This document shows, one piece after another, positions 1,736-29,296 of a stretch of DNA of 35,275 nucleotides. The translations under genes and the position numbers were made by a program. A model generated the notes under the pieces. The model was given only the letters and a program-made list of their open reading frames with translations. It was not told the origin of the DNA and searched no databases. Source of the DNA: an uncultured marine group I thaumarchaeote (GTDB lineage Archaea > Thermoproteota > Nitrososphaeria > Nitrososphaerales > Nitrosopumilaceae). Each line of letters starts with the position of its first letter. Position 1 is the first letter of the stretch. Where the stretch lies: positions 1 through 35,275 of the forward strand of contig CABXQD010000007.1 in assembly GCA_902514275.1 (NCBI GenBank), read 5' to 3'.

Positions 1736-1821
1736 TTTTTTAAATAATTAATCATGTCATATAGTTATTTTGAATTTCAATTATTTCAAAATATCTGTCT
1801 AATAAAATGAATTAATTTGAA

Positions 1822-1915
1822 TGGACCGGATGGGATTTGAACCCACGACCTTTGCGGGAATTTCTTCCTTACGCAGTGTGAGTGCGTCATCCAAACCAAA
1901 CTAGACGACCAGTCC
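1822..1915 (-). tRNA. trnV: tRNA-Val (anticodon CAC) with a 19-nt intron
   Basis: The minus strand folds into a full cloverleaf. Acceptor GGACTGG pairs with CCGGTCC, with discriminator A at 1822. The anticodon stem ACGCA/TGCGT encloses loop CTCACAC, with anticodon CAC at 1878-1880 (Val, codon GUG). The T arm is GTGGG-TTCAAAT-CCCAT. Between the anticodon stem and the T stem there are 24 nt instead of about 5. These resolve as a bulge-helix-bulge intron at 1851-1869 (separate entry), and removal leaves the usual AGGTC variable loop and a 75-nt tRNA. CCA is not encoded. The D stem needs two G-U pairs, a mild weakness. The identity is strong because both end stems, the T loop and the anticodon stem all fit. 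Confidence 0.93.
1851..1869 (-). other. tRNA-Val intron, non-canonical site 44/45
   Basis: A 19-nt archaeal tRNA intron in the variable region. On the minus strand the order is TGCG (exon, 39-42), bulge TAA, hairpin GGAA-GAAA-TTCC, CGCA, bulge AAG. TGCG pairs with CGCA as the 4-bp central helix, and the two 3-nt bulges lie on opposite strands, which is the bulge-helix-bulge substrate of the archaeal splicing endonuclease. Cutting after the second bulge nucleotide on each side (TA/A and AA/G) joins exons into the standard 5-nt variable loop. The structure is read directly; splicing itself is inferred. Confidence 0.8.
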
Positions 1916-2045
1916 AAATTATTTATGAAAAGACATGGTTTTCTATCTTTACTTTATTGTTATTTTGTAATTACCTAACCTTTTTCTATTGTTCATGCAA
2001 ATTTGATTCATATCTTTAAAAGAATTTGATACCATAATTGATAGG

Positions 2046-13947: not shown

Positions 13948-14196
13948 TCAAGAATTACGTTCTAAACACATTGGTTTTTCATATTCGGAACATGCCATTT
14001 TTGTGCATGCAAAATCTTCGATACCGTCTGGATTTGTCATAACCGTACATGTGTTACATCCGTCATACCACACTGAACAGTTTTCAGGTGCAGGAAAAGG
14101 TACTGATTTTGGATTTTCTGTCTCTATTACATTACTTAGTAACATACCAACAGTAAAGAGAATTCCAAATATGATTAATGGAAATATTATTTTCAT
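13948..14196 (-). CDS. Small membrane-anchored Cys-rich protein
   Basis: An 82-residue protein with one N-terminal hydrophobic segment (residues 3-22, anchor or uncleaved signal) and an outside part with six cysteines (C40, C47, C50, C64, C69, C77). The core reads NCSVWYDGCNTCTV then DFACTKMACSEYEKPMC. A Trp-Tyr-Asp-Gly-Cys-x2-Cys pattern with an even number of cysteines suggests a small disulfide- or metal-stabilised extracytoplasmic domain, perhaps of protease-inhibitor-like build. Function is unknown. It faces the end of the beta-CASP gene. Confidence 0.75.
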   Translation of the reverse strand: MKIIFPLIIFGILFTVGMLLSNVIETENPKSVPFPAPENCSVWYDGCNTCTVMTNPDGIEDFACTKMACSEYEKPMCLERNS

Positions 14197-14607: not shown

Positions 14608-14847
14608 TTATGACTTAGTAAATTCTCTACATCTGCAATCTGCAACTAAGCAAATTTCATCATTTCTAATATGATCATGGGCAAAATGCTTACATGACTC
14701 ATTTTTACAAATTCTTCTTTGTATCTCTCTTTTTACAATTGCCTGAGCGATCTGATTGGCTTTTTCTTTGGAATGGCCTTTCTTATCAATGTAAAAGTGA
14801 ACAATTCCATTATATAGCAGATTTGGATTGAATTGCTTTTCTAGCAA
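14608..14847 (-). CDS. Small Cys/His-rich protein, putative zinc binding
   Basis: A 79-residue protein. The first 45 residues form a helical part (KEKANQIAQAIVKREIQRR). The second half holds C47, C52, H54, H57, H59, C66, C71 and C73 in CKNESCKHFAHDH...CLVADCRCREF, enough for one or two zinc sites. The start is TTG, immediately after the TAA of the 31-residue gene upstream (TAATTG), so the two look translationally coupled. The upstream peptide carries the same C-K-x3-C-x-[CH]-x2-H-D pattern. A small zinc-finger regulator or RNA/DNA-binding protein is possible; I recognise no named family. Confidence 0.65.
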   Translation of the reverse strand: MLEKQFNPNLLYNGIVHFYIDKKGHSKEKANQIAQAIVKREIQRRICKNESCKHFAHDHIRNDEICLVADCRCREFTKS

Positions 14848-14943
14848 TTATTTTCGCCTATTTCCACGCCTAAAAGTTGGTTTGTCATGATCTTTACAAC
14901 CACATTTTCTCTCTTTACATAATTCTTGGACTTGAAATATCAT
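14848..14943 (-). CDS. 31-residue Cys-rich microprotein
   Basis: A short frame beginning MIFQVQELCKERKCGCKDHD and ending with a basic tail (TFRRGNRRK). C9, C14, C16 and H19 follow C-K-x3-C-x-[CH]-x2-H-D, the same spacing as residues 47-58 of the next gene, to which its stop codon is directly joined. That repeated motif and the zero-base spacing are the evidence that it is translated. It could bind zinc alone, or with its partner. Function unknown. Confidence 0.45.
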   Translation of the reverse strand: MIFQVQELCKERKCGCKDHDKPTFRRGNRRK

Positions 14944-15020
14944 CTACTTTGAATATGTGATTATCTTATTTCAAATTCTCTTGAATCTATCTTTCCAATT
15001 GTTTATTTTTTTATAATTTT

Positions 15021-15152
15021 TTAAATATTATTTAATTGAAATATGGAAAACGTAGTTACTTTTTCACATTTCTGTGCAACCACGTCTTCCTGCGTGTATT
15101 GTCTTTCACCATCAATGTCCTCACATCTTAATGGATTGGTAGACGTTACCAT
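15021..15152 (-). CDS. 43-residue hypothetical protein
   Basis: A frame starting MVTSTNPLRCEDIDGERQYT and continuing QEDVVAQKCEKVTTF. It is hydrophilic, with two cysteines 18 residues apart (C10, C29). It coincides exactly with a GC-richer island (about 15060-15150) in an otherwise very AT-rich 500-base stretch. A TTAAATTT box on the minus strand lies about 30 bases upstream. An opposite-strand frame (15043-15261) covers the same bases, but its second half is AT-rich nonsense, so I prefer this one. It might also be a non-coding RNA locus. Confidence 0.4.
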   Translation of the reverse strand: MVTSTNPLRCEDIDGERQYTQEDVVAQKCEKVTTFSIFQLNNI

Positions 15153-15466
15153 AAATAATGTCTTAAAATCAAATTTAACTAACTCTATTTATTTATCTTA
15201 TATTCATTTAAAATATTATAATTTTTTTGACAGATATTCATTATTTTTTGATAACCTGTAATCGTCATAAGATAGATAATTTAAATTGAAATTATTGTGG
15301 ATTGGAACTTATTTCAATTTTGATTATCCATCTGAGGTTTTCAAATGATTGATTGTTGTATTTAATATTAAAATTAATTGTAAAAAATTGTTTAAATTCA
15401 TTTGTATTTTTTTTGAATTATTAACAAAACAAAAATCGGAATTAATTATTTCCCTTTTGTTGGAAT
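15153..15466. other. AT-rich gene-free stretch
   Basis: About 310 bases of low-complexity A/T sequence between two small minus-strand genes. I see no convincing frame, tRNA or strong hairpin. Frames on the plus strand translate to Ile/Phe/Tyr/Asn-rich strings typical of non-coding AT-rich DNA. Promoter elements for the 43-residue gene are expected at its left end. Confidence 0.4.
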
Positions 15467-15601
15467 TTATCCCCCAGTCATCGAATCTGATAACACACAG
15501 TCACATGAATCTCTTTGATCACAATAACTGCATTTACAAATACATTGATCAAATGATGTTTTACAAAATGTGCATTTGGTGAATTTTAAATTGTTATTCA
15601 T
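15467..15601 (-). CDS. 44-residue zinc-finger-like microprotein
   Basis: A frame starting MNNNLKFTKCTFCKTSFDQC with eight cysteines in 44 residues: C10-x2-C13, C20-x-C22-x-C24-x2-C27, C33-x-C35. This is enough for two tetra-cysteine zinc sites. It ends SDSMTGG. The dense, regular Cys pattern would be lost in any other frame and is very unlikely by chance in AT-rich DNA. It sits 41 bases downstream of the stand-alone Lrp-type sensor gene on the same strand. A small nucleic-acid-binding or metal-handling protein is likely; the family is unknown to me. Confidence 0.65.
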   Translation of the reverse strand: MNNNLKFTKCTFCKTSFDQCICKCSYCDQRDSCDCVLSDSMTGG

Positions 15602-15642
15602 AAAATCACTTTTTGAAATGTATTTTTTGTAATATCATTTTA

Positions 15643-15882
15643 CTATTCTTGTCCTTGGATTCCCATTAATGTTAATGTTGATCTAATGTTGGCAATTTTT
15701 CTAATTTTCCATGTAATGGTTTCACGTAATTTTTCAACTAATTCTGCTTTTACTTTTGCTAAAATATCATATGCGCCAAATGTACCGTGTACTTCAACAA
15801 CCCCTTCAATTGATTTTAGTTCTGAAATCACTTTTTCTTCTGAACCAAGATCACAGTTTATGAGAACATATGCTGTAGACAA
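15643..15882 (-). CDS. Stand-alone Lrp/AsnC ligand-binding (RAM) domain
   Basis: A 79-residue protein consisting only of the alpha-beta RAM/AsnC_trans_reg domain (AYVLINCDLGSEEKVISELKS, then VHGTFGAYDILAKVK and TITWKIRKIANIRSTLTL). The DNA-binding helix-turn-helix is absent. Such short proteins bind amino acids or related effectors and can assemble with full-length Lrp proteins. Start is TTG, with GGAG 13 bases before it. It diverges from a complete Lrp/AsnC regulator across 160 bases, which suggests that the two work together (inference). Confidence 0.85.
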   Translation of the reverse strand: MSTAYVLINCDLGSEEKVISELKSIEGVVEVHGTFGAYDILAKVKAELVEKLRETITWKIRKIANIRSTLTLMGIQGQE

Positions 15883-16023: not shown

Positions 16024-16038
16024 AACTATAATATAGTT
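16024..16038. promoter_or_regulatory. Perfect 15-bp palindrome, probable Lrp operator
   Basis: AACTATA-A-TATAGTT is a perfect inverted repeat with a one-base centre. It lies between the TATA box and the start codon of the Lrp/AsnC gene, where bound protein would block transcription initiation. Lrp-family regulators bind short AT-rich palindromes of about this size and commonly repress their own gene, so autoregulation is the natural reading. Confidence 0.55.
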
Positions 16039-16042
16039 GAAT

Positions 16043-16483
16043 ATGGATGATAAAGATATTGAAATTCTAAAACATCTTTCCGTAGATGGTAGACAATCTG
16101 CACGACAATTGTCACATAGACTGGGAGTATCCACTGTAACGATTTTATCTAGAATAAAAAAACTTGAAGAACAAAATATTATTCAAGGGTATTCTGTTCG
16201 TTTGAATCATGAATTACTTGGATTTGATATTACTGCAATAATTGAAATAAAAAGTAACAAGGGTAAAATGTTAGAAATTGAAAGTGAAATTGCAAAATAT
16301 GATAGTATCATTGCAGTTTATGATATAACTGGTGATGCTGATATGGTAATTATTGCAAAGTTCAAAACTCGTGAATTATTGAGTGATTTTGTGAAAAAAG
16401 TATCTGCTATACCTAATGTTGAAAATACGTTAACTCATCTTGTATTGAATACCATAAAAGAAGATAATAGATTGATCGAATAA
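16043..16483 (+). CDS. Lrp/AsnC-family transcriptional regulator
   Basis: A 146-residue protein with the standard two domains. Residues 1-60 form the winged helix-turn-helix (IEILKHLSVDGRQSARQLSH, RLGVSTVTILSRIKKLEEQNII). Residues ~65-140 form the RAM effector and oligomerisation domain (ITAIIEIK..., DITGDADMVIIAKFKTRELL, VENTLTHLVL). The ATG at 16043 is preferred over the TTG at 16037 because the predicted transcript starts near 16039 and the family begins MDDKDIEIL. It probably represses itself through the palindrome at 16024-16038 and may share control with the divergent RAM-domain gene. Confidence 0.93.
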   Translation: MDDKDIEILKHLSVDGRQSARQLSHRLGVSTVTILSRIKKLEEQNIIQGYSVRLNHELLGFDITAIIEIKSNKGKMLEIESEIAKYDSIIAVYDITGDADMVIIAKFKTRELLSDFVKKVSAIPNVENTLTHLVLNTIKEDNRLIE

Positions 16484-28561: not shown

Positions 28562-29296
28562 TTAGTTCACTGTAACACTACCGACCATCCAAGGATGGAC
28601 CATACAGAAGTAATCGTAATTACCTGCATCATTGAATGTGAATGAATAATCCAAACCTGCCATTAGTAGACTGCTGTCAAATACTCCAGATGGACCATCT
28701 GCTGGGCTTCCACCTGTTACAGTATGTGCTGCGGTGTCTACGTTATCCCATAGTACTGTATCTCCAATACTAATGGTGATGTCTTGTGGTAGGTAACATG
28801 CATTAGATGTTTCACATCCTGGTGCTCCACTTCCCATTGCAGTTTCCACAATGTGTGTTTGTGGAACTGCTGCTGCGGCTTCTGCTGCTGCGGCTTCTGC
28901 TGCTGCGGCTTCTGCTTTCTCAGCTGCTGCGGCTTCTGCTGTTGCTTTCTCAGCTGCTGCATCTGCTGCTGCTGCCTTAGCTGCGGCTTCTGCTTTCTCA
29001 GCTGCATCTGCTGCTGCTGCCTTAGCTGCTGCGGCTTCTGCTTTCTCAGCTGCTGCTGCATCTGCTGCTGCTGCCTTAGCTGCTGCTTTCTCAGCTGCGG
29101 CTTCTGCTGCTGCTGCCTTAGCTGCTGCTTTCTCAGCTGCTGCTTTCTCAGCTGCATCTGTATCTATTGCAGAACTCATTTGTTGAGTAGGTGCTGCTGG
29201 TGAGTTATCTATTGAACCTCCCATTGCTGCAATTCCGACACCAACTAATGTGATTGCAATTGAAAATACAATTGCTGCTTTGTCTATACTTGCCAT
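28562..29296 (-). CDS. Membrane-anchored blue-copper (plastocyanin-like) protein
   Basis: A 244-residue protein with an N-terminal hydrophobic anchor (residues 7-26), an Ala-rich linker (about 48-143) and a type I copper domain (~148-244). The copper ligands are His191 (AAHTV), Cys231, His234 and Met237 in YFCMVHPWM. C161 and C167 could form a disulfide. The cupredoxin should face outside the membrane and carry electrons; thaumarchaea use many such proteins in ammonia oxidation. The linker is built of A, E, K and D repeats and should be a stiff helix. It ends 19 bases after uvrC on the opposite strand. Confidence 0.93.
   Translation of the reverse strand: MASIDKAAIVFSIAITLVGVGIAAMGGSIDNSPAAPTQQMSSAIDTDAAEKAAAEKAAAKAAAAEAAAEKAAAKAAAADAAAAEKAEAAAAKAAAADAAEKAEAAAKAAAADAAAEKATAEAAAAEKAEAAAAEAAAAEAAAAVPQTHIVETAMGSGAPGCETSNACYLPQDITISIGDTVLWDNVDTAAHTVTGGSPADGPSGVFDSSLLMAGLDYSFTFNDAGNYDYFCMVHPWMVGSVTVN
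28868..29155 (-). repeat. Ala-rich linker repeat in the cupredoxin
   Basis: Low-complexity, GC-richer DNA made of imperfect tandem copies of units such as GCTGCTGCCTTAGCTGC and CTTTCTCAGCTGC (plus strand). It encodes roughly 96 residues of A/E/K/D repeats (AAEKAAAKAAAAEAA). Because the units lack stops, long frames open in several other phases; they are not genes. Unit number may vary between strains by slippage. Confidence 0.85.

Follow-up and report, generated by a model that had tools for sequence, protein, structure and literature searches.

A Cys/His-rich microgene abutting the gene of a conserved small protein in Nitrosopumilaceae: a candidate for translational coupling

The nearest described kind of protein to those considered here is the C(P)XCG zinc-finger micro-protein of Haloferax volcanii, of which HVO_0758 and HVO_2753 are presented in the excerpted text of PMC10716476. 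Like the products discussed below, these proteins are, by that excerpt, archaeal, tens of residues long and equipped with cysteine motifs predicted to hold zinc. The same excerpt gives HVO_0758 a basic helix and a zinc core, and the 79-residue protein at the center of this study, Zn79, may combine the same two elements. A small literature search returned nothing that joins Nitrosopumilus or N. maritimus with zinc-finger or cysteine-rich small proteins.

Nitrosopumilaceae are among the most abundant archaea. The DNA analyzed here, called the window throughout, is a stretch of 35,275 nucleotides, contig C7 of a genome that is 63% complete, and the named relatives of that genome belong to this family. 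The original prediction described four small minus-strand frames within 1 kb as a single zinc-dependent regulatory module of Cys/His-rich genes beside an Lrp-type sensor. All four frames are present with the lengths given (79, 31, 43 and 44 residues, the last with eight cysteines), and the 31- and 79-residue genes do touch, at a TAATTG junction. When the peptides were searched against relatives, the 79-residue protein was found in 36 and the 44-residue protein in 45 of 61 genomes (both counts take in the genome of the window), whereas the 43-residue product matched none of the 60 others at E 0.01 (the best match, at E 0.063, has an internal stop). Conservation thus supports the 79-, 31- and 44-residue frames as genes but not the 43-residue one. 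None of the four matched a Pfam family (E up to 1) or an NCBIfam family (E up to 0.1). The four frames are not one module; they are a pair formed by Zn79 and the 31-residue microgene mic31, a separate unit containing the 44-residue C44, and a frame that is non-coding.

Zn79 (14608..14847, minus strand) starts with TTG and consists of a helical hairpin plus a Cys/His part with C47/C52/H54/H59/C66/C71/C73. All of its single-query matches lie in the window's own genus, where it was missing from one member, G003 (82% complete). A Zn79 profile matched 63 of 398 genomes sampled across the phylum, and 62 of these matches are in Nitrosopumilaceae, which contribute at least 63 genomes to that sample; the family member G412 had no match. 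There was no clear match outside the family in this sample: the sole hit there, in G385 (E 7e-4), covers only the helical residues, within a longer protein that appears membrane-bound by eye. Zn79 is therefore a core protein of Nitrosopumilaceae, and its gene is real and old. No Pfam family (E up to 1) matched more than 5 of 35 members. Zn79 would be a core protein of this family with neither a Pfam nor an NCBIfam model.

The seven residues Cys47, Cys52, His54, His59, Cys66, Cys71 and Cys73 are invariant among 35 Zn79 sequences, giving the ligand pattern C-x4-C-x-H-x4-H...C-x4-C-x-C, and so are the non-ligand residues K27, A30, N31, R61 and N62. Further counts were made on named loci, the best 80 of 164 loci encoding Zn79 relatives. 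In these best 80, His57 is kept in 73 and His59 in 79, the 80th being L124, whose Zn79 frame has an internal TAA after residue 42 (the frame of the similar L121 is open). The motif proposed for both small proteins, C-K-x3-C-x-[CH]-x2-H-D, matches both window peptides letter by letter, yet their families do not keep it: it lacks the conserved His59 of Zn79, and its second residue is K, E, V, N, T or D in the mic family. The expected protein-level constraint on Zn79 was borne out, with dN/dS of 0.02-0.08 against five near relatives (dS is near saturation in four) and a pooled pN/pS of 0.11 in the clade where mic31 and Zn79 overlap by 7 nt. By these sequence measures, Zn79 is under purifying selection.

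AlphaFold2, given 77 of the 80 named loci plus the window (excluding L124 for its internal stop and L145 and L170 as duplicates of other sequences), predicted confident helices at residues 8-22 and 27-45 and modelled the Cys/His part poorly (pLDDT about 65). Comparison of Zn79 with PDB sequences gave nothing better than E 0.48, and a Foldseek comparison of the model with solved structures nothing better than E 2.2. The gene's surroundings are well kept, with GlyK upstream in 64 of the best 80 loci, MBL downstream in 76 and both in 61; loci without both flanks include contigs that end early. A viral origin was considered and rejected: two IMG/VR matches to residues 3-23, in a long ORF that by eye resembles a phage portal protein, are attributed to chance, and tblastn against phage records gave nothing at E 0.01. 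Separately, L078 encodes at 1468-2049 a protein of 194 residues with a Cys/His stretch like the Zn79 C terminus (36% over residues 17-77, E 1.9e-5) and a weak FAM221 match (E 0.009); its gene adjoins one of 452 residues.

Directly upstream, mic31 (14848..14943, minus strand) abuts the Zn79 start and encodes C-x4-C-x-C-x2-H with a basic RRGN tail. With a mic31 profile and a cut-off of E 1e-3, 22 of the 397 genomes searched across the phylum gave a match, the window's own among them and every one in Nitrosopumilaceae, a count that may be a lower bound, the model being so short. Many family genomes had no match even at E 0.1, so Zn79 does not depend on mic. Where contact exists (25 of the best 80 of 164 loci), the same Cys/His pattern lies upstream, and the prediction of conserved neighbors with conserved Cys and His holds for this pair, though not for all four frames together. 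Among the 10 sequences of the 7-nt clade, variable sites are spread 9/7/19 over the three codon positions (permutation p 0.00095); for two clades with five sequences each, the bias falls short of significance (6/7/10, p 0.17; 4/2/5, p 0.28). The dN/dS of mic against the window is 0.21-0.57, with a pooled pN/pS of 0.22 in the 7-nt clade. Rows of the mic alignment were chosen by the motif pattern C-x3-5-C-x-C...R[RK]GN, a choice that in part produces the invariant columns of the alignment. On this pattern of sequence conservation, mic31 is a real microgene, one of a kind (31-34 residues) short enough for gene callers to overlook.

A common origin of the motif repeated in the two neighbors found no support: profile comparison gave a probability of 10.7% (E-value 0.0029, for a search of one profile) and aligned mic with a different Cys stretch of Zn79. 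The two genes do move together: G024 (= L085/L119) and G006 (= L086) have mic31 and Zn79 jointly inverted. On the one short contig of L118, opposed MBL-type frames (3-662 and 1675-2709) flank mic31-Zn79, which is possibly an assembly artefact or an inverted duplication, perhaps related to these inversions.

In the window a single TAA separates the two coding stretches, which share one frame, as expected if readthrough of this stop codon yielded a longer Zn79 that begins with the 31 residues. However, the junction takes four forms, with changes of frame: the genes abut in one frame in 10 loci and overlap in other frames by 1 nt in 3, by 7 nt in 11 and by 8 nt in 1, all among the best 80 of 164. 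These geometries indicate two genes, not one readthrough frame. Zn79 also starts with ATG in 39 of the same 80 loci, and we regard readthrough as extremely improbable.

The way Zn79 starts differs with its neighbor. It touches an upstream gene in 35 of the best 80 of 164 loci, mic in 25 and, in 10, a gene for a stand-alone Lrp/AsnC ligand-binding (RAM) protein. Among these 35 touching copies the start is TTG in 29 and ATG in 6, and a TATA-like TTTWWAWR box at -48 to -24 is present in none. Among the 45 non-touching copies of the same best 80, in contrast, the start is ATG in 33 and TTG in 12, and the box is present in 37, against a shuffled mean of 3.4. These 45 include L149, whose upstream part is missing and whose remaining end looks touching-like, and L122 (N. 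limneticus), where mic, judged by eye, looks degraded as far as the junction. Where mic lies farther away (L164, L173, G018, G010), Zn79 starts with ATG. Fisher tests gave p 5e-7 for the start codon and 4e-15 for the box, values that overstate the case because the loci are kin. Mapped on a tree of the MBL protein, the touching state and the box show no fewer than 11 changes each and the start codon no fewer than 17; these kinship-corrected counts cover 74 of the 80 loci (the 75 whose MBL match exceeds 400 bits, minus L149). Five well-supported independent pairs scored 3.7 for and 0.0 against the box association and 3.2 for and 0.6 against the start-codon association, and with five such pairs p 0.05 is out of reach for either.

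A second box lies upstream of mic itself. In the window it reads TTGAAATA (14967..14974, minus strand), stands 31 nt before mic31 and may serve as a promoter or as a regulatory element. A TTGAAATA/TTCAAATA-like box has its first match at -29 to -31 of mic in 31 of 37 loci and occurs anywhere within 70 nt in 33 of the 37, which are from Nitrosopumilus- and Nitrosarchaeum-type genomes; both this pattern and the TATA-like one were picked after viewing the sequences. The position of the mic box suggests that transcription starts at mic. Together with the box and start-codon pattern of Zn79, it supports translational coupling of Zn79 to its upstream neighbor. Zn79 seems, from these sequence features, to alternate between two modes of expression, and this repeated switch of one protein between touching and separate states offers a natural test case for archaeal translational coupling. 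A regulon search in 37 genomes found surroundings like those of the Zn79 box less often than a reversed control (52 versus 86 among the matches listed), and four other sites that were inspected had no common theme.

The neighbor that touches Zn79 is not always mic. The Nitrosarchaeum order is mic - RAM - Zn79, where RAM matches PF01037 (L187). In the best 80 of 164 loci, RAM abuts or overlaps Zn79 by 0-1 nt in 10, and a mic-type frame precedes RAM at all 10 junctions. Two more genera of the family (L257, L258) likewise have RAM adjoining or overlapping Zn79. In a tree that carries a long-branch warning for L136, the Zn79-linked RAMs form a clade of 20 rows (support 95/94) that leaves the window RAM outside. 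Orthology of the window RAM with the Zn79-linked RAM is accordingly not supported; within the window genus, the closest matches to a RAM of the linked kind reach at most 58% identity. The proposed association of an Lrp-type sensor with Cys-rich microgenes therefore stands in that the two are linked in two settings, but the sensor in the window is not of the Zn79-linked clade.

We put slightly better than an even chance on the reading that mic31 and Zn79 form a translationally coupled operon of Cys/His microproteins with metal-bound folds, in which Zn79 acts as an adaptor. One mRNA would begin just upstream of mic31, and a ribosome finishing mic31 would restart at the abutting or overlapping Zn79 start. 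Mic and Zn79 would then be produced in a fixed ratio, as would mic, RAM and Zn79 in Nitrosarchaeum. Each of mic31 and Zn79 would most likely fold around Zn2+ or another thiophilic metal. Zn79 would most likely be a small adaptor, built from a helical hairpin and a zinc domain, whose binding partner is either a nucleic acid or a protein. Its co-subunit would be RAM or mic31, the latter as a small Zn-knuckle protein.

In the main rival to the adaptor reading, the Cys/His microproteins serve as buffers or chaperones of metal, handling the Zn or Cu that ammonia-oxidising archaea need. Short chains dense in Cys and His, with CKCDCH-like and eight-cysteine patterns, would suit such a role, as would the several C44-type copies found in many genomes. 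However, Zn79 has a long, conserved, ligand-free helical part and the invariant K27, A30, N31, R61 and N62, which would be unusual for a buffer. Mic has a basic RRGN tail, and no metal transporter was seen among the window ORFs in a check by eye. On balance, we consider buffering unlikely.

C44 (15467..15601, minus strand) has eight cysteines, ends in -TGG and shows a dN/dS of 0.06 (30 codons, one pair). Upstream of it lies a 41-nt apparently decayed remnant of another Cys-rich microgene, Cys47 (15602..15642, minus strand), recognized by eye from DNA and three-frame comparison. Next comes the gene for the stand-alone RAM protein (15643..15882, minus strand), which matches PF01037 alone (E 2e-12) and no HTH family. 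Divergent from it is a full-length Lrp/AsnC regulator (16037..16483, plus strand) with HTH and RAM parts (PF13404 E 1.3e-12, PF01037 E 1.9e-14). C44 adjoins RAM/Lrp also in L115-L117, L119 and L032, and in these loci Cys47 is open between RAM and C44; RAM adjoins C44-type genes in other Nitrosopumilus as well (L036, L043, L048, L055, L223). C44, with another RAM clade and Lrp, is a second and different unit that lies alongside mic31-Zn79 in the window clade.

The original prediction would instead place all the small frames and the Lrp-type genes in one zinc-dependent regulatory module. They do lie on one strand within 1.3 kb in the window, and pairing of RAM with Cys-rich microgenes occurs in two distinct groups of RAM. 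However, the 43-residue frame is non-coding, the RAM-Cys47-C44 unit and mic-Zn79 are on separate contigs in G014 and G017, and mic-Zn79 is inverted relative to RAM in G024 and G006. Moreover, C44 or Cys47 lies nearby in 4 of the 25 loci retrieved with the window RAM (L289-L313) and is missing near the other 21. A single module is improbable on this evidence.

C44 also has wider relatives. A widespread eight-cysteine paralogue has two CXXCG motifs and ends in -ATGG. In 23 of 30 loci it lies beside an ORF of 483-494 residues, which runs off the end of the locus, likewise in L054 and L040. By eye, the neighboring ORFs in L038 and L088 resemble the alpha part of 2-oxoacid:ferredoxin oxidoreductase, and the outgroup counterpart of this oxidoreductase-type ORF in L235 matches PF01855 and PF01558. 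Two deep lineages encode fusions of a NifU-like domain with a C44-type end (L240, PF01106 E 6e-7; L238, by eye). In L119/L085 (G024), C44 lacks the -TGG end and its C terminus reads on differently.

The 43-residue frame (15021..15152, minus strand) was rejected as a gene because it has no homologue at E 0.01 among the 60 other genomes and indels in L115-L117 break it. The spacer DNA beneath it is 68-72% identical between the window and aligned relatives, and the frame overlaps R1, an RNA-like element of 110 nt (15043..15152, minus strand). By Blast among the fetched loci, the R1 block occurs in the window, L115-L119, L121, L124, G006 and L205, several of which are the same genomes. It lies 91-100 nt upstream of mic, a place kept where mic-Zn79 is inverted. 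On the mic strand R1 folds into two stem domains with 23 pairs; folding z-scores are -3.65 and -4.14 for the window, -3.48 for L115, -3.26 for L124, -0.95 for L116 and +0.25 for L119, and the window plus strand gives -1.39. Across nine distinct sequences, few and related, 96.6% of cells are paired versus at most 51.5% when the structure is slid, a control that favors the structure because it was derived from the same sequences. Five pairs changed on both sides, which 2 of 500 shuffles reach, and the covariation score exceeds all 500; the count of further pair types is unremarkable (158 of 500). Of 207 cells, 32 are G-U on the mic strand; read from the opposite strand, they would be mismatched.

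A covariance model of R1 matched 4 of 41 genomes under strict filters and 11 of 74 sources, with the next match at E 1.1; the matches are confined to the window clade, once per genome, and R1 was not found in other clades of either set. About 25 nt before R1 is an invariant AGTTAAAT stretch, which, from what is known of archaeal promoters, would fit a TATA box of its own. Since mic has its own upstream box after R1, an independent small RNA is favored over a leader, and R1 is probably such an RNA, judging from these features of the DNA. Noncoding RNAs of marine microbes are reported in the excerpted part of PMC5069720, and R1 is possibly among them. If it is transcribed, marine ammonia oxidisers would have in R1 a new structured RNA.

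R1 lies next to the putatively coupled zinc-microprotein pair and moves with it, and in sister genera a RAM sensor joins the pair. It is tempting to read these as a control unit of RNA and microproteins, an idea that we hold to be rather doubtful. If true, ammonia-oxidising archaea would adjust the ratio within a heteromeric zinc adaptor to metal or metabolite status.

Three further features of the window deserve mention. An 82-residue frame (13948-14196, minus strand) has a start that looks signal-like by eye, several cysteines and a weak Pacifastin match below the cut-off; no homologue was found among 83 loci scanned at E 1e-4. The product of 28562-29296 (minus strand) has, by eye, a plastocyanin-like C terminus behind a long Ala/Glu/Lys repeat stalk. 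A tRNA-Val (cac) at 1821-1916 (minus strand) spans 96 nt against a 71-position model, perhaps because of an intron.

How close, then, are these genes to known systems? The C(P)XCG micro-proteins have fewer than 70 residues and two C(P)XCG motifs. The 31- and 44-residue products are within that length and Zn79, with 79 residues, exceeds it. Unlike the Haloferax micro-proteins, none of the four window frames carries the motif pair: mic and Zn79 have different patterns, and in the window C44 the G is absent after CTFC and CSYC. C44 paralogues do carry two motifs of the C(P)XCG type, as in L038 (CVECG and CPYCG), which would belong to the class by its motifs. The genes of mic31 and Zn79 also overlap or abut, unlike those of the Haloferax micro-proteins, and zinc is predicted here. 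A phage family of 59 positions, phrog_6114, weakly matches the Cys/His residues 45-74 of Zn79 (E 5e-4) and leaves the helical part unmatched. R1 is compact, with two stem domains like known structured RNAs, although none of the 4227 covariance models of Rfam 15 matched 14900-15500 up to E 1. Finally, the proteins encoded at 15643-15882 and before the Nitrosarchaeum Zn79 resemble known stand-alone Lrp/AsnC RAM proteins in consisting of RAM alone (PF01037), and differ from them in that their genes adjoin Cys-rich microgenes.
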